NCBI GenBank assembly: GCA_036496605.1
Contig: DASXKV010000057.1
Coordinates: 1 to 44,784, forward strand
Origin: Gemmatimonadaceae bacterium
GTDB taxonomy: Bacteria; Gemmatimonadota; Gemmatimonadetes; Gemmatimonadales; Gemmatimonadaceae
DNA length: 44,784 nucleotides
Direction: 5' to 3'
The first letter of the stretch is position 1. Each line of letters opens with the position of its first letter. Positions 33,476-44,426 of this stretch are shown piece after piece. The notes under the pieces are model-generated. The model ran no database searches and had not been told where the DNA came from. It worked only from the letters and a program-made list of their open reading frames with translations. The position numbers and the translations under genes are program-made.

Positions 33476-33521
33476 GCGCTGATCTTCCCTCTCGTCGTGC
33501 GCACCCTTAGTGTGCACACGG

Positions 33522-34517
33522 ATGACCGTCGTCTTGCGCGCCGCCACCGATCAGGGGCTACTAGCCCTCCAGCGGCAACTGCGCGCCCTCGCGCCCGACA
33601 TCGCGCTCGTCACCAACGGTGACCAGGCGCTCGAGCGTGTCACACCCGACGCGCGGCCGCCTCGACTCGTGGGCGCCGACGTCATGGAGGGGAGCGTGAT
33701 GCGCGCACGGCGCGTCTTCGGTGATCACGAGGCGGCGTTCGCAGCGTTCCTCGACGGAACGCAGACGAGCCGAGTCGTCGCCTATGTCGACGGGACGCCG
33801 ATCGTACACGGCACGGTGGCGGCCGTGGTGCGCATGCGGCGCAACCGGCGCCTAACGACATGGCATCGCCCGATCGTCAGACGTCGACTTTACGCGTGCT
33901 TGCGCGCGTTCACGCCCGAGCAAGTGCGCGCGTTGCACGCACTGGGCCTCGAGGTCGTCGACACGACGCCGGCGTCGCAAGAGCCGGCCCTGCACCCGTT
34001 CATTCTGCGCGACGAAGCAGTGCATCGTGTCCAGGAGGATCGGGAGGAGGCCGAGCGCGAGCTCGCCGAGCGTTGGTGCCACCACGAGCGTGAGCCGCTT
34101 TTCATCGACGGCGGCATCAGTGGCAGCGACAAGGTTGCCGTCTCAGCGTGTACTGTTGGCGTAGTGAAGAGCCACCGCACGCTCTACGCCGAGGGCGACG
34201 CGCTCCAAACGATCTTTGGCCTGCGGAGTGGCGAGCGCTCGAGTGTATTTCGCGTGACGTCGCCGAAACGTATTCCCGTCGCGAGCTGGTATCTGCGACT
34301 GCGCGATCCGCTCGGCTACGATCCAATGTGGGGTCTGGTCCGCGTCGAGATCGCCTGTCCGGCTCACATCGACGCCGATTCTGTCGGGCCCACGGCCGAC
34401 AGAGTCTCCCTCTGGATTTTGGCGGAAGCAACGCCGCTTGCTCTGCCCGACGGTCGCTGGGACAAAATGGTCTATGGAATTCGTGATTGCGAAGAATTTC
34501 TTCACGCGGTGACATGA
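33522..34517 (+). CDS. NurA-like nuclease (HerA partner)
   Basis: 331 residues from the ATG at 33522 (a GTG at 33510 would add four). Recognised mainly from context and layout: two aspartate-glycine beta-strand motifs, FLDGTQTSRVVAYVDGTPIVHG (D78) and PLFIDGGISGSDKVAVSACTVGVVKSH (D196), as expected for the RNase H-like NurA fold, separated by a helical, charged insert (about 110-185). In archaea NurA is a 5'-3' exonuclease driven by the HerA hexamer during end resection. The stop overlaps the HerA-like ATG (ATGA), so the pair is coupled, and mre11/rad50 follow. The domain call is an inference. Confidence 0.68.
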   Translation: MTVVLRAATDQGLLALQRQLRALAPDIALVTNGDQALERVTPDARPPRLVGADVMEGSVMRARRVFGDHEAAFAAFLDGTQTSRVVAYVDGTPIVHGTVAAVVRMRRNRRLTTWHRPIVRRRLYACLRAFTPEQVRALHALGLEVVDTTPASQEPALHPFILRDEAVHRVQEDREEAERELAERWCHHEREPLFIDGGISGSDKVAVSACTVGVVKSHRTLYAEGDALQTIFGLRSGERSSVFRVTSPKRIPVASWYLRLRDPLGYDPMWGLVRVEIACPAHIDADSVGPTADRVSLWILAEATPLALPDGRWDKMVYGIRDCEEFLHAVT

Positions 34518-36481
34518 CGACGGCTGCACTCACTCCACTCGGCCGCGTCGTCGCCACCGAGCGACGCCCCAACACGCCGCACGAGTTTCATTTCTGGACG
34601 TCGCTCGACTCGCCAGTCGGTGTCGGTACGATCGTTAGGGTGGAAGGGAAGTATACGATCAACGGGCAGATCACGCGCGTGTACGGCGTCGTCGTCGAGG
34701 GATTCAGCTACTCGGATCTCCAGTCGCCGCTGCATGACGTGTTGGGACACGATGGGAGCCCGGCGTCCGCGTCGCTCGCCTCGACGGAGCGCGCCGAGAT
34801 CAGGCTGTACACGGCGGCAGTTTTGCGCCAACTGCCTGACGAGCCGCTGCAGCCCGTGCCGTTAGGCGACGTCCATCTCGCCGATGACGCCGACATTGCC
34901 GTCGCGCTCCGCATGGATGGCTACCTCGCCGACGGGGCACGCACGGGGATTCCAATCGGCGTCTATCACGCTGGTGGCACCGACGCGCCCATCTATCTCG
35001 ATGCGGATTTTCTCATCGGACCGGAGGCGGCGCATCTCAACATCACCGGCGTGTCTGGCCTCGCGACCAAGACGAGCGCCATCGAATGGATCCTCGCGTC
35101 GCTCTTCACCCACTTTCCCGAGCAGAAGGGCTCGATTGCCGCCGTCTGCTTCAACGTCAAAGGTCCCGATCTGTGCTTTCTCGACCAGCCCGGCGAGATC
35201 GACGAGCGGGATCGGGCGCTCTACGAGAAGTGTGGCGTTTCGCCGGCGCCGTTCGGAAACGTTCAATATTTCGCCCCATACAAGTCCGATGGCGTCTCGC
35301 TCAACACGCTCCGTTCGAACGAGGCGCTCCTGGATAACGTGACGGCGTTGACGTGGGGCCTTCGCGAAGTGCTCCAATACGCCGAGGTGCTCCTCAACAA
35401 GGACGACGTCGACGCGAAGGCGGATGCCCTGATCGATTTCATACGAGAGCGCATCGTCGACCGGGATTTTCACGATGAGCTGGTTCTGCCGGGAAAACGA
35501 TACCGGGTCCGATCGTTTGCCGATCTCGAGCAGTGGTTCAAGGACCTGCTCGTTGCCCTGGAACATCGTGGCAACGAGAGCTGGCGCACGCACCACATCG
35601 CCACGATTCGTAAGGTCCGTAACCGTCTCTCGAACATCTCGACTCGGTGCGCCGGTCTCGTGACCGACGACGGGAATGTCGGTGACCTTCCCTTCGGGAG
35701 CTTTCAGGACCGCACGGTGTATGTGATCGACGTCGCCTCACTCGAGGAGGACGCGCAGGATCTGGTCTTTGCGCGCGTCGTCACGAAGCTGCGGGAGCAC
35801 CTTGAAAAGCGAGACCTCGGCGTCAAGCACGTCGTGGTTTTCGTGGACGAGCTCAACAAATACGCGCCGAGCGACGGGCAAGACACCTACGTTCGCAAAA
35901 TGCTGCTCGATCTGGCGGAGCGCGGACGGTACTTGGGTCTCGTCCTGTTCAGCGCGCAGCAATTCCGCTCGCAGGTGCACCGGCGCGTTGTCGGGAACTC
36001 GGGAACAGCGCTGTATGGTCGTATGGACGCGGACGAGCTGGCGACACCGGGTTATTCGGTCCTCAGTCCGGCCGTGAAGACGAAGCTTGCAACGCTCGAG
36101 AAGGGACAACTCATGGTGCGGCACCCGCACTTTACACAACCGATCTTCGTGCGCTTTCCGCGGCCGGCCATCATGCGTGGCCGCGATGGTGCGGAGCGGT
36201 ATCCGCAGGCACAGGACGTTACGCTCGAGGCAGCGCTGCTCCGGTCGCTCCGTCCGCTCGATCCGACGCTGACTCTCAATTGGATCCAGGACGTCGTCGT
36301 GTTGCACGAGGAGGAGGATGTGATTCGGGCGCGCAATGCAACGCTGCGCGAGCGGCCGTCCGACGTGCGGCGGTTTTTCAAGGCGCAGCTCGCGTCGCGC
36401 GTGCCAACGACGCCGGTCACGCCGCGACCGATGGTCACTCCGATCCGCTCGGCGCCAGCCGACGATCCGTACGGCCCCTGA
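34514..36481 (+). CDS. herA: HerA-like hexameric ATPase (DUF87 family)
   Basis: A 655-residue FtsK/HerA-type motor that would translocate DNA for the coupled NurA-like nuclease. The N-terminal part is a beta-barrel-like HAS domain (GTIVRVEGKYTINGQITRVYGVVVEGF). The P-loop region reads ITGVSGLATKTS (177-188, Lys186), which departs from GxxxxGK[ST]: it has one extra residue and Thr before the Lys. Walker B is VVVFVDELNKYAP with D445 and E446. The arginine/sensor area is LFSAQQFRSQVHRRVVGNSGTALYG. The ATG (34514) overlaps the preceding stop by 4 bp. The C-terminal 30 residues are Pro/Thr-rich. Confidence 0.85.
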   Translation: MTTAALTPLGRVVATERRPNTPHEFHFWTSLDSPVGVGTIVRVEGKYTINGQITRVYGVVVEGFSYSDLQSPLHDVLGHDGSPASASLASTERAEIRLYTAAVLRQLPDEPLQPVPLGDVHLADDADIAVALRMDGYLADGARTGIPIGVYHAGGTDAPIYLDADFLIGPEAAHLNITGVSGLATKTSAIEWILASLFTHFPEQKGSIAAVCFNVKGPDLCFLDQPGEIDERDRALYEKCGVSPAPFGNVQYFAPYKSDGVSLNTLRSNEALLDNVTALTWGLREVLQYAEVLLNKDDVDAKADALIDFIRERIVDRDFHDELVLPGKRYRVRSFADLEQWFKDLLVALEHRGNESWRTHHIATIRKVRNRLSNISTRCAGLVTDDGNVGDLPFGSFQDRTVYVIDVASLEEDAQDLVFARVVTKLREHLEKRDLGVKHVVVFVDELNKYAPSDGQDTYVRKMLLDLAERGRYLGLVLFSAQQFRSQVHRRVVGNSGTALYGRMDADELATPGYSVLSPAVKTKLATLEKGQLMVRHPHFTQPIFVRFPRPAIMRGRDGAERYPQAQDVTLEAALLRSLRPLDPTLTLNWIQDVVVLHEEEDVIRARNATLRERPSDVRRFFKAQLASRVPTTPVTPRPMVTPIRSAPADDPYGP

Positions 36482-36490
36482 TCGCTGACC

Positions 36491-37345
36491 ATGCTTCGCG
36501 CACGCTTGCGCCGCAGTCATCTCTTGATCGGCGTCGTTATGTGCCTGACGAGGGCGCTCGCGGCCGGTGCGCAATCCGTGTTGCTGGAAATCCGCCCGCG
36601 CGTTGGTGACACGCTGCATTTGCGTCTCGATCAGCAGACGGAGCTCACCGGCCTCCGTCGGCCCGGCAGTTCCTCGGCGACGTCGGTCACGACGACGATG
36701 CGCGTCTACTCACGCGCGATTGTGGAGCGGAGCGTCCCGACCGCGACGTACGTACGAGCCGTCACGGATTCGATCCAGCTGAGCTCAAACGATGAGCGAG
36801 CGTTCAATCTCGAGAACGAGGCACGCCGCTCGCTCGAGGGGCGCGCGATGATGCTCCGCATCTCGCCGGACGGAACCGTCTCGCTCGCGGACACGACGGA
36901 CACTGCGCCCGACGTTGCCGAAACGATGTCGCTCATGCCAGCGGCGTTCCCACGCGGTCCAATCGAAGTGGGCTACACCTGGAGCCGTGAGATGCCCGTG
37001 CCGGCTGGCGGACGACCCGCGCCCGGCGGCGTCATGAGCGCGTGGCTGCACACGAAGTTCCGTCTCGATTCGCTCTCTCGTCATGGCACCATCGCGTATG
37101 TGTCCATGCGTGGAGAGATGAGCCCCGATCCCGACGCGGGATTGACGCAAGGCGCGGGGCCCGTGCTCGAAAGGGGCACGGTGACGGGGACCATGCTCGT
37201 CGACCGCACGCGTGGATGGCTAACGGAATCGCAGTTCACGATCGTTGCGCACTCGGTCGTACGCGTCCCTGGCACAGATGACACCGTGATGCGATTTGAG
37301 ACCCGCGTCACACAACGCATGAAGACCGTCGAAAAGCGTCCGTAG
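36491..37345 (+). CDS. Exported beta-rich protein, function unknown
   Basis: 284 residues with a signal peptide (basic N-terminus, LLIGVVMCLTRALAAGA, cleavage near residue 27). The mature part is beta-rich, with Thr/Ser-rich strands (SSATSVTTTMRVYSRAIVERS) and a C-terminal TGTMLVDRTRGWLTESQFTIVAHSVV that resembles DUF6263-like periplasmic proteins. It is oddly placed between the HerA-like and Mre11-like genes and starts 9 bp after the former, so it is probably co-transcribed by position only. No nuclease or ATPase motif. Confidence 0.65.
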   Translation: MLRARLRRSHLLIGVVMCLTRALAAGAQSVLLEIRPRVGDTLHLRLDQQTELTGLRRPGSSSATSVTTTMRVYSRAIVERSVPTATYVRAVTDSIQLSSNDERAFNLENEARRSLEGRAMMLRISPDGTVSLADTTDTAPDVAETMSLMPAAFPRGPIEVGYTWSREMPVPAGGRPAPGGVMSAWLHTKFRLDSLSRHGTIAYVSMRGEMSPDPDAGLTQGAGPVLERGTVTGTMLVDRTRGWLTESQFTIVAHSVVRVPGTDDTVMRFETRVTQRMKTVEKRP

Positions 37346-37436
37346 AATTCTCAGGCGAGGGGAGCCGAAGCGAGCGCAAGCGAGTACCTTCGGCGTATAT
37401 TTGGCGCCGGGCTCTCCGCGTCTCGACTCCCGCAGC

Positions 37437-38639
37437 ATGCGTCTCGTCCATTTATCGGACCTGCACCTCGGATTTCGTCAGTATCAACGTCTCACTCCCG
37501 GCGGGATCAATCAACGGGAGGCAGACGTTGCGCGATCGTTTCAGACGGCGATCGATCGCATCATCGCGCTGCAGCCCGATATGGTGCTGGTCGCGGGCGA
37601 CATATTCCACAACGTCCGTCCGACGAATCCGGCGATCGTGCACGCGTACTTGCAGTTCAGCCGCTTGCGGGCGGCGCTGCCTAACGCTCCGGTCGTGATG
37701 GTCGCGGGCAATCACGACACGCCCCGCGCGACCGAGACGGGCAGCATTCTGCGGCTGTTTCGAGAGTTTGGCATTCACGTCGCCTATTCGGAACCAGAGC
37801 GCTTCTATTTCGGCGAACCAGGCATTTCGGTGCTCGCCGTTCCCAACGTGCCAAAGCGGCCTTCGCTGAAGCCCGATCCAAATGCGCGCTTCAACATTCT
37901 CGTGCTCCACGGCGCCGTGGAGGGTACGTTGCCGGCATACTTCCTCACGGCTGATCGCGCCGGGCTGGAGATTCCACGGTCAGAGCTCAACGCCGCCGCG
38001 TGGGATTACGTCGCGCTTGGCGATTATCACGTCCATCGCCAGATCGAGGCTAACGCGTACTATTCGGGAGCGATCGACTATACGAGCCAGAATGCGTGGG
38101 GCGAGCTCTACGAGGAGCGTGTTTCCGGGCTGCCCGGGAAGGGATTGGTCGAGTGGAACCTCGAGAGCGGCGCGCACACCTTCCACGCACTGCCACCCTC
38201 GCGTCCACTCATCGACTTGCCGCCGATCTCGGCGCGCGGCCTCACGGTGGCCGAGCTCGATGAGCGTATTCAAAGTGCGGTCGCCGGCGTTCGCGGCGGC
38301 ATCGAGGATAGGATCGTGCGTCTGATCGTACGCGATCTGCCCCGCCACATTGCTCGCGATCTGAACCACAAGGCGCTCCGTGATCTCAAACGGCGCGCGC
38401 TGCACTTCCATCTCGATACGCGCCGACCGGAGGTCGCGCGACTCTCCGTCCAGGGTGCACCGGGACGACGTCCGTCGCTCGCGGAGGTCGTCCGCGAAAA
38501 ATTGATGAGCCGCGTGCTCGAGCCGGACATTGATCGCAAGGAGCTGGTCGCGTTAGGCCTGCGTTATCTGAGTGAAGCCGAGAACACCGTCAGCCCGGCG
38601 CACTTTGGCGCCGACCCGGCGACGGATGGGAGCGGATGA
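37437..38639 (+). CDS. sbcD: DNA double-strand-break exonuclease Mre11/SbcD
   Basis: 400 residues from the ATG at 37437. The phosphoesterase metal ligands are complete: D8 and H10 (HLSDLHLGF), D55 (VAGDIFHN), N92 and H93 (AGNHDTP), H158 (LHGAVEG), H198 and H200 (ALGDYHVH). The capping domain spans about 265-330. With SbcC/Rad50 it makes the complex that opens blocked ends and hairpins. The stop lies 4 bp before the preferred sbcC start, so the two are coupled. The upstream 91 bp hold a GCGAG-rich stretch with dyads but no clear RBS. Confidence 0.95.
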   Translation: MRLVHLSDLHLGFRQYQRLTPGGINQREADVARSFQTAIDRIIALQPDMVLVAGDIFHNVRPTNPAIVHAYLQFSRLRAALPNAPVVMVAGNHDTPRATETGSILRLFREFGIHVAYSEPERFYFGEPGISVLAVPNVPKRPSLKPDPNARFNILVLHGAVEGTLPAYFLTADRAGLEIPRSELNAAAWDYVALGDYHVHRQIEANAYYSGAIDYTSQNAWGELYEERVSGLPGKGLVEWNLESGAHTFHALPPSRPLIDLPPISARGLTVAELDERIQSAVAGVRGGIEDRIVRLIVRDLPRHIARDLNHKALRDLKRRALHFHLDTRRPEVARLSVQGAPGRRPSLAEVVREKLMSRVLEPDIDRKELVALGLRYLSEAENTVSPAHFGADPATDGSG

Positions 38640-38643
38640 CTCC

Positions 38644-41100
38644 GTGCGTCTGAACTCGCTCCATCTTAGCAACTTTCGGCAGCACGCCGACACGCATATC
38701 GTCTTCGACTCGGGCCTGACGGGAATCATCGGTCCTAACGGCGCCGGCAAGTCGACGATCCTCGAGGGCATCGCGTGGGCGCTGTACGGCACGCCAGCGG
38801 CCCGCGGCACTCGCGACTCGATTCGATTCAACCGAGCGGGCGCGCGCGCCCAGGTGCGTGTCGAGCTGGATTTCGAGCTTGGCGGCCATCGCTATCTCGT
38901 CTCGCGCGGCCTAACGAACGCCGAGCTGTTCCTCGACGGCGCGAGCTCGCCGATCGCGAACACGATCACCGGGGTCACCGAGCTGCTCCGGCGGCGGCTC
39001 GGGATGAGCCTCGACGAGTTCTTCAACACGTACTTCACCGGCCAGAAGGAGCTGAGCGTGATGGCGGCGATGGGGCCGTCGGAGCGCGCACAGTTCCTCT
39101 CGCGCGTGCTCGGCTACGAGAAGCTACGAACGGCCCAGGCGCTGGTTCGCGAGCGCCGTCGCATCATTCTCGCCGAGGCTGCTGGGCTCCGCGCGGGAAT
39201 GCCCGATCCGGAGAGCGTCGCGCGCATGCTCACGGATGCGCACACCCGGATGGAGCTTGCGGAGACGCGACAACGGGACGCGACCGAACGCCGTGCGCGC
39301 GCCTCGAGCCTCCTCGATCACGTCACGCCACGCTGGGAGACGTTGCAACGAGAGCGCGAGCGGCTGCAGGCGCTGCTCGCCGAGCTTCGCGTGGCCGAAA
39401 GCGAGGCTGCTGGCCTCGCACGCGATCGCGAGCGGCTGGATCGGGAGCTCGCGGACGTCGCCACCGCGCGCGTCGAGCTCGAGAAGATCCGCGCGGAGAT
39501 CGCGCCGTTAGGCGAGATCGTCGCCGCCCTGCACGAGATGGATCGTCTGTACGCGGAGGAGGGACGTCGCCGGACGCTACTCGAGAGCGTGCGGGCGCTG
39601 TCCGATGATCTCGGGCGGCTGCGCGAGCGGCGAGCGAAGGTCGAGGCAGCGCCCGGGTTGGAGGAGCAGGCGAACACTGAGCTGGCGGAGAAGCGGCGCG
39701 AGCTGCAGCGGACGGACGAAGAGCTCGAGGAGAAGCGAACCGATTGGGTGCGTGACCGGCAGGAAGCGGAGACCAAGCTCGAGGCGTTGCGCCGACAGCA
39801 CGCGGAGCTGAAGGACCAGCGCGAGCGACTCGTCGCCGCCGGCGAGAACGGCATCTGTCCGACGTGCGCGCGACCGTTGGGCGATCATTATCGTTCCGTG
39901 CTCGATCTCATCGATGATCAGCTCAACACCGCCGTCGTCGACGGGAGCTACTACCGCAAGCGGCTCGATCAGTTGGTCGAGATGCCGCCGACAGTCAAGA
40001 CGTTAGGCGAGCAGCGCCGTCTGGCGCTCGAGAGCGTCGGGAAGCTGGAGCGGCGGCTCGCTCGCGTGCAGAGCGCCATCCAGGAGTTGGCCCAGATCGC
40101 GCGAGAAATGACGCAAAAGGAAGAGCGCGAAGAGGTCTTGCGCCGCGAACTCGCCGACATACCCAGCGGCTATCGGGCAGACCAACACCAGCATCTGCGC
40201 CACGAGCTCGAGCGGCTCCAACCGCTCGATGCCCGAGCAGCACGGCTCGGCGCGCAAGTCGAGCGCGACGGCCAATTGCGACGCGAGCGCGAACGGGTCG
40301 GCCAGGCGTCCGACCTAACGACGAACCACATCGCCGAGCTGCGGTTGCAACGCGACGCGGTGCAGTTTTCCGAGCAGTCGTGGGATGGGATCCGCGGCGA
40401 GTACGAGCGTGCGGCGACGGAGCTACGGGCTGCCGAGCTGGCCTGCGTGGCCACGGAAGGCGAAGCGGCAGCCGCACGTGGCGCGCTCGACACGGCGCTC
40501 CAGGCGCAACGCGATCTCGCCAAGTCGCAGACCCAGCTCGACGAGCTCAATCGCGACAAGCGGATGCACGACGAGCTCGATCGCGCATACTCGGACATGC
40601 GGACGGACCTCAACGTGCAGCTTCGACCCGAGATCTCCGAGCTCGCCAGCTCGTTCCTGACCGAGTTGACCGACGCCCGATATTCGGAGTTGGAGCTGGA
40701 CGATCAGTACAACGTACTGGTTCTCGAGGAGGGCGTACCGAAGCCGGTGATCTCGGGGGGCGAAGAGGATCTGGCGAATCTCGTCCTTCGCCTCGCAATT
40801 TCGCAGATGATCGCGGAGCGCGCGGGCCAGAGTTTCTCCCTCCTCATCCTCGATGAGATCTTTGGCTCGCTCGATGAATCCCGGAGACACAACGTGGTCG
40901 AGCTCCTGCGGCGGTTGCAGGACCGATTCGAGCAGGTCATTCTCATCACGCATATCGAATCGGTGCGTGAGGGGCTCGACCGCGTCATCACTATTCGCTA
41001 TGACGAAGAATCTGGCGCCTCGCGCGCGGAGCACGAGCCCGCGTTAGGCGCGGTCGCCGTCGACGATTCGGCGCAGCTCACCATCGGAGCCGCCGACTGA
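38644..41100 (+). CDS. sbcC: DNA repair ATPase Rad50/SbcC
   Basis: An SMC-like ATPase of 818 residues from GTG 38644 (an in-frame ATG at 38626 adds six). It begins VRLNSLHLSNFRQH, as SbcC proteins do, and GGGAG lies upstream. Walker A is GPNGAGKST at 30-38, the zinc hook C405-P-T-C408 sits at the middle of two long coiled coils, the signature is SGGEEDLANLVLRLA from residue 704, and Walker B is LLILDEIFGSLDE near 735. It is about 230 residues shorter than the E. coli protein, close to archaeal Rad50 sizes. The octamer CGTTAGGC or a near match appears six times in this gene. Confidence 0.95.
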   Translation: MRLNSLHLSNFRQHADTHIVFDSGLTGIIGPNGAGKSTILEGIAWALYGTPAARGTRDSIRFNRAGARAQVRVELDFELGGHRYLVSRGLTNAELFLDGASSPIANTITGVTELLRRRLGMSLDEFFNTYFTGQKELSVMAAMGPSERAQFLSRVLGYEKLRTAQALVRERRRIILAEAAGLRAGMPDPESVARMLTDAHTRMELAETRQRDATERRARASSLLDHVTPRWETLQRERERLQALLAELRVAESEAAGLARDRERLDRELADVATARVELEKIRAEIAPLGEIVAALHEMDRLYAEEGRRRTLLESVRALSDDLGRLRERRAKVEAAPGLEEQANTELAEKRRELQRTDEELEEKRTDWVRDRQEAETKLEALRRQHAELKDQRERLVAAGENGICPTCARPLGDHYRSVLDLIDDQLNTAVVDGSYYRKRLDQLVEMPPTVKTLGEQRRLALESVGKLERRLARVQSAIQELAQIAREMTQKEEREEVLRRELADIPSGYRADQHQHLRHELERLQPLDARAARLGAQVERDGQLRRERERVGQASDLTTNHIAELRLQRDAVQFSEQSWDGIRGEYERAATELRAAELACVATEGEAAAARGALDTALQAQRDLAKSQTQLDELNRDKRMHDELDRAYSDMRTDLNVQLRPEISELASSFLTELTDARYSELELDDQYNVLVLEEGVPKPVISGGEEDLANLVLRLAISQMIAERAGQSFSLLILDEIFGSLDESRRHNVVELLRRLQDRFEQVILITHIESVREGLDRVITIRYDEESGASRAEHEPALGAVAVDDSAQLTIGAAD

Positions 41101-42077
41101 TGGTCGCGACTCGCACCTGGCGTCCCTCGCACTCCGTCGACGGCCCCTTCCGGGCACGGCTCGACGACATCGCCGACCTGAATCAGGTCTTCAGCGATGC
41201 GTTCACCGAGCGGTATCGTCGCGACGGCATGGTCGGCGTCCGCGTGCCGTATCTCAATCCCGCCGTGTGGCGCTACGCGATCGCAGACGCGGACGCGGGC
41301 GCGATGCTCTGGCGTGATGACCGCGGCCACATCGCTGCGTTCAACATGATCCATCGCTCCGGAACGGAAGGATGGATGGGCCCACTCGCCGTGCGTACGG
41401 AGTACCAGGGCACGGGACTCGGCAAGGAGATCGTGTCGCGCGGGATCGAGTGGCTAAAGCAGAGCAGCGCGAGGGTGATCGGTCTCGAAACCATGCCGCG
41501 GACGATGGACAACATCGGCTTCTACTCGCGGCTCGGCTTCGTACCTGGCCATCTGACATTGACGACGACGTTGGACGCGGCGCTTTCCGATCGGCCGGCG
41601 CTCCTCCTCGCACGTCGCTCGGCCCAGGAAAAAGAGGCGACCATCGCCGAGTGCAAGTCGCTGCTCGAGCGGCTGGCGCCGGGGTACGATTACACCAGGG
41701 AGATCCAGCTGACGGACGAATTGTCGTTAGGCGATACCGTCATTCTCCGTGGCTCCGACGGCTCCCTCGAGGGTTTCGCGCTCGCGCACACGGTACCGCT
41801 CGTGGAGGGACGAGCGCGCGAAGAGCTACGCGTGCTGAAGCTCGTGCTGTTGCACGAGGAGCAGTTTCCGGACATGGCGCGTTCCTTGTGCGACTTTGCG
41901 CGACGCGGTGGCACACGGCGCGTTGCTTTACGAGTTCAGGGCGACTACCAGGCGACCTATCAGCGATTGATCGGCATGGGTGCGCGGGTGCGATGGACGG
42001 ACCTCCGCATGTCGCTCGCGAAGCACGAGGAACAGCATCCGAGCCAGGCGCTCGTGCTATCCAATTGGGAGATTTAG
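41100..42077 (+). CDS. GNAT-family N-acetyltransferase, possibly two-domain
   Basis: 325 residues. The first GNAT domain (about 15-165) has the acetyl-CoA motif RTEYQGTGLGKEIVSRGIEWL and the usual NIGFYSRLGFVPG. The second half (about 180-310: DTVILRGSDGSLEGFALAH and a strand-helix pattern) looks like a degenerate second copy without the R/QxxGxG loop. The start codon shares its A with the sbcC stop (TGATG), so it is translationally coupled to the nuclease operon. Substrate unknown. Confidence 0.82.
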   Translation: MVATRTWRPSHSVDGPFRARLDDIADLNQVFSDAFTERYRRDGMVGVRVPYLNPAVWRYAIADADAGAMLWRDDRGHIAAFNMIHRSGTEGWMGPLAVRTEYQGTGLGKEIVSRGIEWLKQSSARVIGLETMPRTMDNIGFYSRLGFVPGHLTLTTTLDAALSDRPALLLARRSAQEKEATIAECKSLLERLAPGYDYTREIQLTDELSLGDTVILRGSDGSLEGFALAHTVPLVEGRAREELRVLKLVLLHEEQFPDMARSLCDFARRGGTRRVALRVQGDYQATYQRLIGMGARVRWTDLRMSLAKHEEQHPSQALVLSNWEI

Positions 42078-42085
42078 AGCGCGAG

Positions 42086-43372
42086 CTAAGACGTTGCGGC
42101 GTCAGCGCTTTGGCTCGCCGTTGGGCTCAAACTGGGCTTGTCTGGCGCGTTTTCGACGACTCTGAGCGTCGTCGCGGCGTCCGGCTGCTGATACGCTTGC
42201 TTCATCGTCGCGAGATCACGCCAGCCACCGGCGCGACTGACGTCGACGTCCGGAAGGTGCTTGCGCTCCGATGCCCACAATCGCCGGTACGCATGCCACA
42301 GCCCGCGCTCGAGCTTCGGCACACCTGCGACGGACTCGGCGCGACGGAGCAAGTAATCGGCGCGGTTGCGGGTGATTGACTCGCTCGGCGTGCTCGGGTC
42401 GCGCATCTCGGGGAACAGCGGCGCGTCGCCGAGACGCGGCTGCAATCGGAAGTAGCGATCGATCGCCGCGCGCCCCGCCGTAGAGAGCGGCGTCAGCTCG
42501 AAATAGCCCAACTTGTCGTGATCCTCGCGGAACGCGAGCGCACCGTGCGGCATGTGCTCGGCGCGCCGCTCGTCCTGGCCCGCGGCGCCGAGCGCGCGAG
42601 TGACCTGATCGCGCGTGAGGTAGACGTCATTCGCTCTGAGATGCGCAATCGCGTTGACGCGACGGCCAGTGAAGCGTGCCAGCGCGAGCATGCACGCGAG
42701 TCGCCCGTGCGGATCGACGCTGTCGGCGACCTTGAGCGTTTTCGTGTAGCGGTCCTCGGACGCGATCGGCCGTTTGACGTTCTTCTCGCGGGGGAGCTGC
42801 ACACCGGCGAGCGGATCGATCGTGAGCAGCGGCCGGCCGCCAACGCGGAAGTTCCGCGCCCAGCGGATGACGCTCTTCAACCAGCGCAACTCATTCCCGA
42901 CCGTGCCGTCGCGCGGCGCCGTCGAAACGCCGCGGGCCTTGGGTGAGACGATTGTGCGCGTGCGCCGGCCGGCGACGTAGCTGTCGACCTGCGTCTGACT
43001 GAAGTTCTCGAGCGCGAACGACTCGCCGAGGTGCCCGGTGAAGTAGGGCTTGTACATGTTCTCAGCGAGTGAGCGGCGTTTCGCTGACAGATGCGGCGCG
43101 CGCTCGGCGAAGTAGAGTGTGAAGAGTCGGCCGAGTGTGAGCGTACGGACCGGACCCGTGAGACGGAGCTCGGCGATCCGGCGGGCGAGCTCCCGCGCCT
43201 GCTCCAGCGCGAGAACTCGATCACCGTGACCTAACGACTTGCGATCCTGCGTGCCGTCGTCGCGGCGCACTTCCCGATAGATGGCCGTCGAGCCCGGCCG
43301 CTCGAAGACGTACACGGTCACGCCCGCCTCTTCGATCGCTTTGCGCCACGCCTTTCGCCGTCGAGTGGTCAT
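42086..43372 (-). CDS. int: Tyrosine recombinase (phage-type integrase)
   Basis: 428 residues. It has an N-terminal arm-type segment with a basic start, a core-binding SAM-like domain around 75-180 (LTLGRLFTLYFAERAPHLSAKRRSL) and a catalytic domain. Catalytic residues visible are Arg238 (FTGRRVN), His and Arg of WHAYRRLW, the Trp of AGGWRD in the His/Trp place, and the nucleophile Tyr in MKQAYQQPD. The Glu usual after the first Arg (GxRxxE) is Ala. The stop is nine bases from the end of the GNAT gene, facing it. It follows an XRE regulator with a 34-bp gap. Probably from an integrative element or prophage remnant. Confidence 0.88.
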   Translation of the reverse strand: MTTRRRKAWRKAIEEAGVTVYVFERPGSTAIYREVRRDDGTQDRKSLGHGDRVLALEQARELARRIAELRLTGPVRTLTLGRLFTLYFAERAPHLSAKRRSLAENMYKPYFTGHLGESFALENFSQTQVDSYVAGRRTRTIVSPKARGVSTAPRDGTVGNELRWLKSVIRWARNFRVGGRPLLTIDPLAGVQLPREKNVKRPIASEDRYTKTLKVADSVDPHGRLACMLALARFTGRRVNAIAHLRANDVYLTRDQVTRALGAAGQDERRAEHMPHGALAFREDHDKLGYFELTPLSTAGRAAIDRYFRLQPRLGDAPLFPEMRDPSTPSESITRNRADYLLRRAESVAGVPKLERGLWHAYRRLWASERKHLPDVDVSRAGGWRDLATMKQAYQQPDAATTLRVVENAPDKPSLSPTASQSADAATS

Positions 43373-43406
43373 TGGTTTCCTCGGATGCCGTTGCGCGCGT
43401 CGCTCA

Positions 43407-43673
43407 TCACTTCCCTCGTCGCTTGCTGACGCTCTCGTCCCGTACGATGAGCAAGCCAGGCGGCGAGACGCCTAACGCCGCAGCCAACTTCTCGAGCACT
43501 TCGAGATCGATCGACCGCGGCCGACCGTTCTCGAGTCGGTTCACTGTGGCACGAGTAACGCGCGCGCGCGTGGCAAGCTCGCCCTGCGACCAGCCCCGCC
43601 CCTCGCGCAGCGTTCGGATCTCCACGCGAAGCGGCGTCATCGCTGCCTGTACGAGTTGGGTTGCTGCTGCCAT
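43407..43673 (-). CDS. XRE-family transcriptional regulator
   Basis: 88 residues from the ATG at 43671-43673, with GAGGGA about seven bases upstream. The helix-turn-helix is LREGRGWSQGELATRARVTRATVNRLENG (about 22-50), with WSQGEL the classic second helix, followed by SIDLEVLEKLAAALGVSP. It is cotranscribed with the integrase and preceded by a promoter overlapped by a dyad, so autoregulation and control of the integrase are likely. Confidence 0.9.
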   Translation of the reverse strand: MAAATQLVQAAMTPLRVEIRTLREGRGWSQGELATRARVTRATVNRLENGRPRSIDLEVLEKLAAALGVSPPGLLIVRDESVSKRRGK

Positions 43674-43702
43674 GGCCGTTCCCTCGGAGAGCTCCAGTAA
43701 GC

Positions 43703-43735
43703 TGTATAGTAGCTCATACACTAGCCCTTGCGCAA
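43703..43735 (-). promoter_or_regulatory. Promoter and operator dyad of the regulator-integrase unit
   Basis: On the minus strand, TTGCGC (43735-43730), an 18-bp spacer and TACTAT (43711-43706) form a plausible sigma70-type promoter. The dyad TGTAT-8-ATACA (43703-43720) covers the -10, as expected for a repressor binding its own promoter. The positions are seen; the binding is inferred. Confidence 0.5.
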
Positions 43736-43898
43736 TAGCGCTGGTGGCTGTAACTTCACTCGTACAGAAGTCGACCGAGAAAGAGCCAGCCCGGTTCCCT
43801 TTGGCAGAGTGACGCGGGACTGGCTCCCCACAGACCCGAAGGCCTGCACGCGCAACGTAGTGCGCTCCCGGCCTCGGGCGCAACGGAGGAGGTAGCAG

Positions 43899-44426
43899 AT
43901 GGAGTACTTCGACGAGTGCTACACGGCCACGCTCGACTCCGAGATCGACAGTCGCATCGCGAGTAGTCGCGCACAGCCACGGCCACCTACAGCGTCGGCC
44001 ATGCACGACCCGACCGAGCAAGACCTCGCGATCGCCGACCGCGCTAACGCTCACGGTGCGTCCGCCTTCGCCCCCGGCACTAGCCTACGCGAGGCCGCCG
44101 GGCAGCAGTTGCGGGCATACGAGCGAGCGAGCGCAGCGTCGGCGCCGCGGAAGACGTCGGGACGGCTGTATCAGCCAGCTCCCGGCCTAACGATCGTCAT
44201 CGCGGCGACTGGTGAGGCATTCTGGGGCCTGCATCACGTCGATGGCGTCTACGTCGCGGATCCGGATATCTGCCGTAGGGCGCAAAGGAATTCGGTCGAC
44301 AACGACCATCGATCGGCGCTGCGGCGGAATGCCCTGTACGATCTCGAGCGCGCCCGGTTCGCGCTCACCGATGCCGGCCACGCTGCGCTCGTCGGCCGCA
44401 ACACTTCGACCACCAGCGCCGCGTAA
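43899..44426 (+). CDS. Unrecognised protein, accessory region
   Basis: 175 residues. GGAGGAGG lies 9-16 bp before the ATG, a strong RBS. The first 80 residues are polar and Ala/Arg-rich; residues about 95-130 (GLTIVIAATGEAFWGLHHVDGVYVADPDIC) look folded. No signal peptide, membrane helix or known motif. It is divergent from the regulator and probably part of the same inserted element. Its upstream 225 bp hold the regulator's promoter and, nearer to it, a stretch without recognisable signals. Confidence 0.6.
   Translation: MEYFDECYTATLDSEIDSRIASSRAQPRPPTASAMHDPTEQDLAIADRANAHGASAFAPGTSLREAAGQQLRAYERASAASAPRKTSGRLYQPAPGLTIVIAATGEAFWGLHHVDGVYVADPDICRRAQRNSVDNDHRSALRRNALYDLERARFALTDAGHAALVGRNTSTTSAA

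Follow-up and report, generated by a model that had tools for sequence, protein, structure and literature searches.

We identified on the plus strand of a Gemmatimonadaceae contig a nurA-herA-mre11-rad50 gene block that we interpret, with a probability of about 0.8, as a DNA-end-resection operon working by the mechanism proposed below. The union of NurA-HerA with Mre11-Rad50 holds order-wide in common soil and water bacteria, whose genomes often lack RecBCD and AddAB. The window, that is, the whole 44,784-nucleotide stretch analysed (contig DASXKV010000057.1), derives from a 5.97-Mb genome that is 97% complete, and its closest public relatives are Gemmatimonadaceae metagenome assemblies. The block begins with nurA (33522..34517, plus strand), which encodes a NurA-type RNase H-fold nuclease of 331 aa and has a GTG at 33510 as an alternative upstream start, and continues with herA (34514..36481, plus), predicted to encode a hexameric FtsK/HerA-type DNA translocase of 655 aa; the two genes overlap in an ATGA at 34514-34517. 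A DUF6263-like gene (36491..37345, plus), whose beta-rich product has a signal-like N-terminal helix, is followed after 91 bp by mre11 (37437..38639, plus; Mre11-type phosphoesterase, 400 aa) and, in an overlapping reading frame, by rad50 (38626..41100, plus; Rad50-type SMC-like ATPase with a CxxC zinc hook, 824 aa; alternative GTG start at 38644). A GNAT-family acetyltransferase-like gene (41100..42077, plus; 325 aa) is coupled to rad50 through a TGATG at 41098-41102. Owing to the 91-bp gap, mre11 may have its own promoter. The four genes, their common strand and both couplings were thus found as reported in a preliminary description of this DNA, and their linkage is real; the block is nevertheless not uninterrupted, because the secreted DUF6263-like gene lies between herA and mre11.

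Since domain scans of the nurA product gave no match (Pfam, NCBIfam and PADLOC), its identity had to be assessed through fold and profile comparison. The NurA profile PF09376, which had been recommended as a check, gave no match to the window NurA. This profile matched 2 of 49 NurA orthologues, with a best E of 0.0076, and its curated cut-off sets a limit of detection and does not define the family; because NurA proteins are missed at the Pfam and NCBIfam thresholds, the spread of the family is probably underestimated. A profile built from the 49 orthologues matched Deinococcus radiodurans NurA (drNurA, 7f6d_H) with E 1.8e-6 and Thermotoga TM1739 weakly. Furthermore, the AlphaFold model computed from the 49-orthologue alignment (pLDDT 91.2, pTM 0.90) resembled TM1739 (1zup, Z 19.0), Deinococcus NurA (7f6d_G, Z 18.8 over 270 residues), Sulfolobus NurA (SsoNurA, 2ygk, Z 14.1), TdpAB (8wfd_G, Z 12.7) and the Thermococcus and Pyrococcus NurA proteins (Z of approximately 12), and the next matches, EndoV and Argonaute at Z of approximately 9, covered the RNase H core only. 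These structural matches established that the first gene has the NurA fold, with an RNase H-like core and C-terminal helices. Moreover, D78, E178, D196, K216, H218 and R312 were invariant across the 49 orthologues. In the profile alignment, K216 aligned with chain residue 221 of 7f6d_H, presumably drNurA K201 if the chain bears a 20-residue tag; K201 is needed for catalysis, and the K201A mutant is inactive (PMC9960219). Judged from its sequence and presuming the tag, the window protein appears to combine the acidic catalytic residues of the family with a K201-equivalent basic residue.

The window HerA matched D. radiodurans HerA (drHerA, 7f6d_B) with a phmmer E of 3.8e-41, the homology extending over the N-terminal part as well as the ATPase domain (residues 9-314 and 345-561), and archaeal HerA chains gave no match to it at E<=10. 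Its Walker A motif, GVSGLATKTS, is the same unusual variant as GISGVATKTS of drHerA, and its Walker B motif, VFVDELNKYAP, aligns with that of drHerA with DE in common. NurA and HerA both belong to the bacterial type, that of Deinococcus and Thermotoga. For Mre11, the Pfam model PF00149 matched with E 1.3e-11, the best PDB chains were archaeal Mre11 proteins (E 1.5e-14), and the phosphoesterase motifs DLH, GD, GNHD, LHG and GDYHVH were read in the sequence. Rad50 matched PF13476, PF02463 and PF13558 in Pfam, the archaeal Rad50 model PRK03918 in NCBIfam with E 4.5e-57 versus 2e-23 for SbcC, and PDB Rad50 with E 9.4e-31; it has an ABC ATPase head, a coiled coil and a CPTC hook, to which the Rad50_zn_hook model responded weakly (E 0.11). 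By these comparisons, the window Mre11 and Rad50 are nearer to archaeal chains and models than to SbcCD. Archaea such as Sulfolobus and the Thermococcales link nurA, herA, mre11 and rad50 and use the products to trim broken ends before repair. The initial label "archaeal-style" accordingly fits the linked gene set and the Mre11-Rad50 type, but not NurA and HerA; the window also differs from the archaeal operon in its extra GNAT and DUF6263 genes, and hosts of the window-type block are mesophilic bacteria with RecO and RecJ.

Synteny reached well beyond the single contig. In 80 related loci collected by tblastn, within the limits of what their contigs show, the order nurA-herA-mre11-rad50-gnat was kept in nearly all, usually with an AsnC/Lrp-domain gene upstream, and departures were mostly contig ends or prediction faults. 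At two loci, L049 and L067, the 6-10 kb upstream of herA contained no nurA. The first of these seems to correspond to genome G140, one of a few Gemmatimonadaceae in which nurA and herA are several kb apart (about 15 kb in G140). Conservation of the block in dozens of relatives rules out a chance arrangement, and the four-gene order, kept throughout the Gemmatimonadales, indicates that nurA, herA, mre11 and rad50 are linked and maintained by selection. Pairwise distances among the four genes correlated at 0.83-0.88 over 31 loci, versus 0.61-0.72 with the AsnC gene. As for the two companion genes, a full GNAT reading frame (PF00583, E 1.1e-12) lay 3′ of rad50 in 53 loci, and a full DUF6263-like frame was present in 50 of the 80, kept in most Gemmatimonadaceae loci and missing from others. 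The DUF6263-like protein fell under the cut-off of PF19777 (E 0.0042), and its model (pLDDT 88, from a 30-member alignment) weakly resembled large lipid transfer proteins in structure comparison (TM ~0.44); it is a conserved passenger and a candidate envelope lipid-binding protein. A GNAT-like gene directly 3′ of rad50 was seen order-wide, also in genomes without nurA-herA.

We then surveyed a sample of 298 Gemmatimonadota genomes, with unsystematic coverage of other phyla. HerA occurred in 188 of them, by our count 158 with the window's type and 30 with distant relatives; the former comprised 86 Gemmatimonadaceae (family f1), 64 members of the sister family f2 and 8 of f4 and f9. The regions fetched from f2, f4 and f9 were mostly herA-mre11-rad50. 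More than half of the f2 regions had an adjoining nurA, and in f9 (for example, G158) this gene lay at another site in the genome; in a few f2 genomes that keep herA-mre11-rad50 (such as G012 and G018), nurA was undetected. Within the Gemmatimonadaceae, NurA was present in 86/86 HerA-positive and in 0/17 HerA-negative genomes. In the HerA-negative genomes inspected, mre11-rad50-gnat mostly remained in place, with the AsnC gene upstream in most, which indicates that nurA-herA was lost as a unit. In two NurA-HerA-negative genomes of 1.8-2.1 Mb (G028 and G171; loci L210 and L297), rad50 appeared shortened or split in its coiled-coil region.

The persistence of mre11-rad50-gnat after nurA-herA has gone raises the question of whether the two pairs adjoin each other only through inheritance and serve separate pathways, as might also be read from the DUF6263-like gene between them and the distant nurA of f9. 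This reading became improbable in light of a second version of the pairing in the phylum. The distant HerA proteins of families f5-f7 include Deinococcus-like ones (E 1.3e-154 to drHerA for the one tested), the accompanying NurA matched drNurA with E 6.8e-21, and the order herA-mre11-rad50-nurA or nurA-herA-mre11-rad50 was found in 10 of 12 regions (L151-L162). The partners tested were true SbcD and SbcC (TIGR00619, 2.7e-54; TIGR00618, 1.6e-72; others similar), and the second-version genomes yielded no full-length orthologue of the window Rad50 but did yield AddAB-like PDDEXK_1 proteins. Linkage in two versions with different partners suggests a joint function of NurA-HerA and Mre11-Rad50, and the archaeal linkage of the four genes adds to a repetition that speaks for joint use.

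The preliminary description had also proposed that the block might be a defence module and, in view of the adjoining integrase, might be mobile. The tyrosine-recombinase-like gene (42086-43372, minus strand) matched PF00589 weakly and proved specific to the window contig, with no counterpart in relatives that carry the block. Together with an HTH_3 gene it occupies 42086-44054 on the minus strand, 3′ of the GNAT gene. A mobile element was rejected as an explanation: neither the integrase nor the downstream HTH gene is common to the relatives, and no tRNA genes were found in the window. The fold similarity of the NurA model to TdpAB (8wfd_G) bears on defence, as TdpAB is a NurA-HerA-like defence pair, and herA gave weak PADLOC matches (mad8, E 7.7e-10; HerA, E 7.9e-6), with the neighbouring integrase as a further pointer. 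An anti-phage module akin to TdpAB or to other HerA-containing systems is nonetheless highly improbable: the block is almost always single-copy and sits in a fixed place throughout the order, and it holds no modification or sensor gene. PADLOC returned no complete defence system; nurA, the DUF6263-like gene and the GNAT gene had no match, and rad50 had generic ATPase matches. With its position fixed order-wide and the integrase contig-specific, neither mobility nor defence was supported.

RecBCD/AddAB is the usual bacterial nuclease for processing double-strand ends; its proteins are unrelated to those of the window block. In the source genome, no PF12705 (the RecB/AddAB-type nuclease domain) was found by a search that matched 12 of 14 control genomes, and there was no RecC match; RecJ (E 2.5e-150) and RecO (E 8.1e-22) were present. 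Across the Gemmatimonadaceae, RecC occurred in 19/86 HerA-positive genomes and in 12/17 genomes without NurA-HerA, and RecC or a strong PDDEXK_1 match in 33/86 versus 14/17 (Fisher p 0.001). The Mre11-Rad50 tree implied only 7-8 changes of HerA state, with at least 7-8 losses in the group, and on it the association of NurA-HerA loss with RecBCD/AddAB was not significant (independent pairs, median p 1); the link is therefore a tendency only. In genus g4, RecC was found in nearly all genomes whether or not HerA was kept, a pattern compatible with, although not proof of, a gain of RecBCD before the loss of NurA-HerA. We tentatively suggest, at somewhat below even odds, that in the Gemmatimonadales NurA-HerA with Mre11-Rad50 was the ancestral main resector in place of RecBCD/AddAB, that later-gained RecBCD or AddAB permitted the loss of nurA-herA, and that the phylum holds at least two versions of the pairing, one Rad50-type and one SbcC-type. 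The suggestion that the block replaces or supplements RecBCD/AddAB is consistent with the source genome; "replacing" is only partly supported, because both systems coexist in other genomes and the association was not significant once phylogeny was taken into account. RecBCD is patchy in the Gemmatimonadaceae, and a complete recC-recB-recD cluster was seen in the HerA- and NurA-negative genome G055 (L212, 59-8876). Another member of the family, G196, has AddAB-like genes, and no NurA, HerA or full-length Rad50 was found in it.

In the proposed mechanism, Mre11-Rad50 would recognise and tether the broken end and nick or open it, after which a HerA hexamer, a dsDNA translocase, would dock on a NurA dimer and pump double-stranded DNA into the pair of RNase H-fold active sites of that dimer; degradation of the 5′ strand would leave a 3′ tail for RecFOR-dependent RecA loading. 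The 6:2 stoichiometry, the polarity of resection and the way in which the work is divided are inferred by analogy with Deinococcus and archaeal studies; in Sulfolobus acidocaldarius, HerA contacts Mre11 (PMC2288612). In genomes without RecBCD/AddAB, including that of the window, the operon would probably serve as a main route of resection beside RecJ. NurA-HerA need not be the main resector, because D. radiodurans lacking nurA-herA after deletion was more resistant to UV and to mitomycin C (PMC9960219). An accessory role as in Deinococcus, in which NurA-HerA trims ends or forks and competes with or regulates RecJ while RecJ and a helicase carry out most resection, would accord with those mutants, which are not sensitive, with the stimulation of RecJ by HerA (PMC9960219, PMC4663267), with the presence of RecJ in the source genome and with the repeated loss of NurA-HerA in the group. 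However, the window genes form an operon with mre11-rad50, whereas the published Deinococcus/Thermus linkage is nurA-herA alone (PMC5448004), and 86 of 103 Gemmatimonadaceae retain NurA-HerA, most of them without RecBCD/AddAB; we thus regard an accessory role as unlikely but not negligible and favour resection by the operon as proposed.

The four-gene linkage itself is known already from archaea and one published bacterium, Oceanithermus profundus, in which a nurA-hepA-sbcD-sbcC cluster was described and an archaea-like function proposed (PMC5448004). O. profundus likewise has the four genes together, but it is one thermophile with SbcCD, whereas the window arrangement is order-wide with a Rad50-type partner. 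The D. radiodurans pair (7f6d; PMC9960219) shares with the window the folds, the ATKT Walker A, the DE Walker B and the aligned K201/K216, but no adjoining mre11-rad50 has been reported for it, its NurA is only ~18% identical to the window NurA, the window HerA retains only part of the acidic patch (D78/E80/D81) through which drHerA binds NurA, and drHerA is far closer to the second Gemmatimonadota version (1.3e-154) than to the window HerA (3.8e-41). According to a 2023 paper, only a few bacteria, Deinococcus-Thermus among them, possess NurA-HerA (PMC9960219). The literature searched held no paper joining Gemmatimonadota and RecBCD, and none joining NurA, HerA and Gemmatimonadetes; the 2004 Iyer FtsK-HerA survey, which may mention them, lay outside it. 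As far as searched, order-wide conservation in mesophilic bacteria is new. Naturally RecBCD-negative bacteria with close relatives lacking NurA-HerA offer a test of the archaeal resection scheme in a RecA/RecFOR setting. Finally, a plasmid search recovered six distant HerA relatives with 26-32% identity, mainly from cyanobacteria and actinobacteria.
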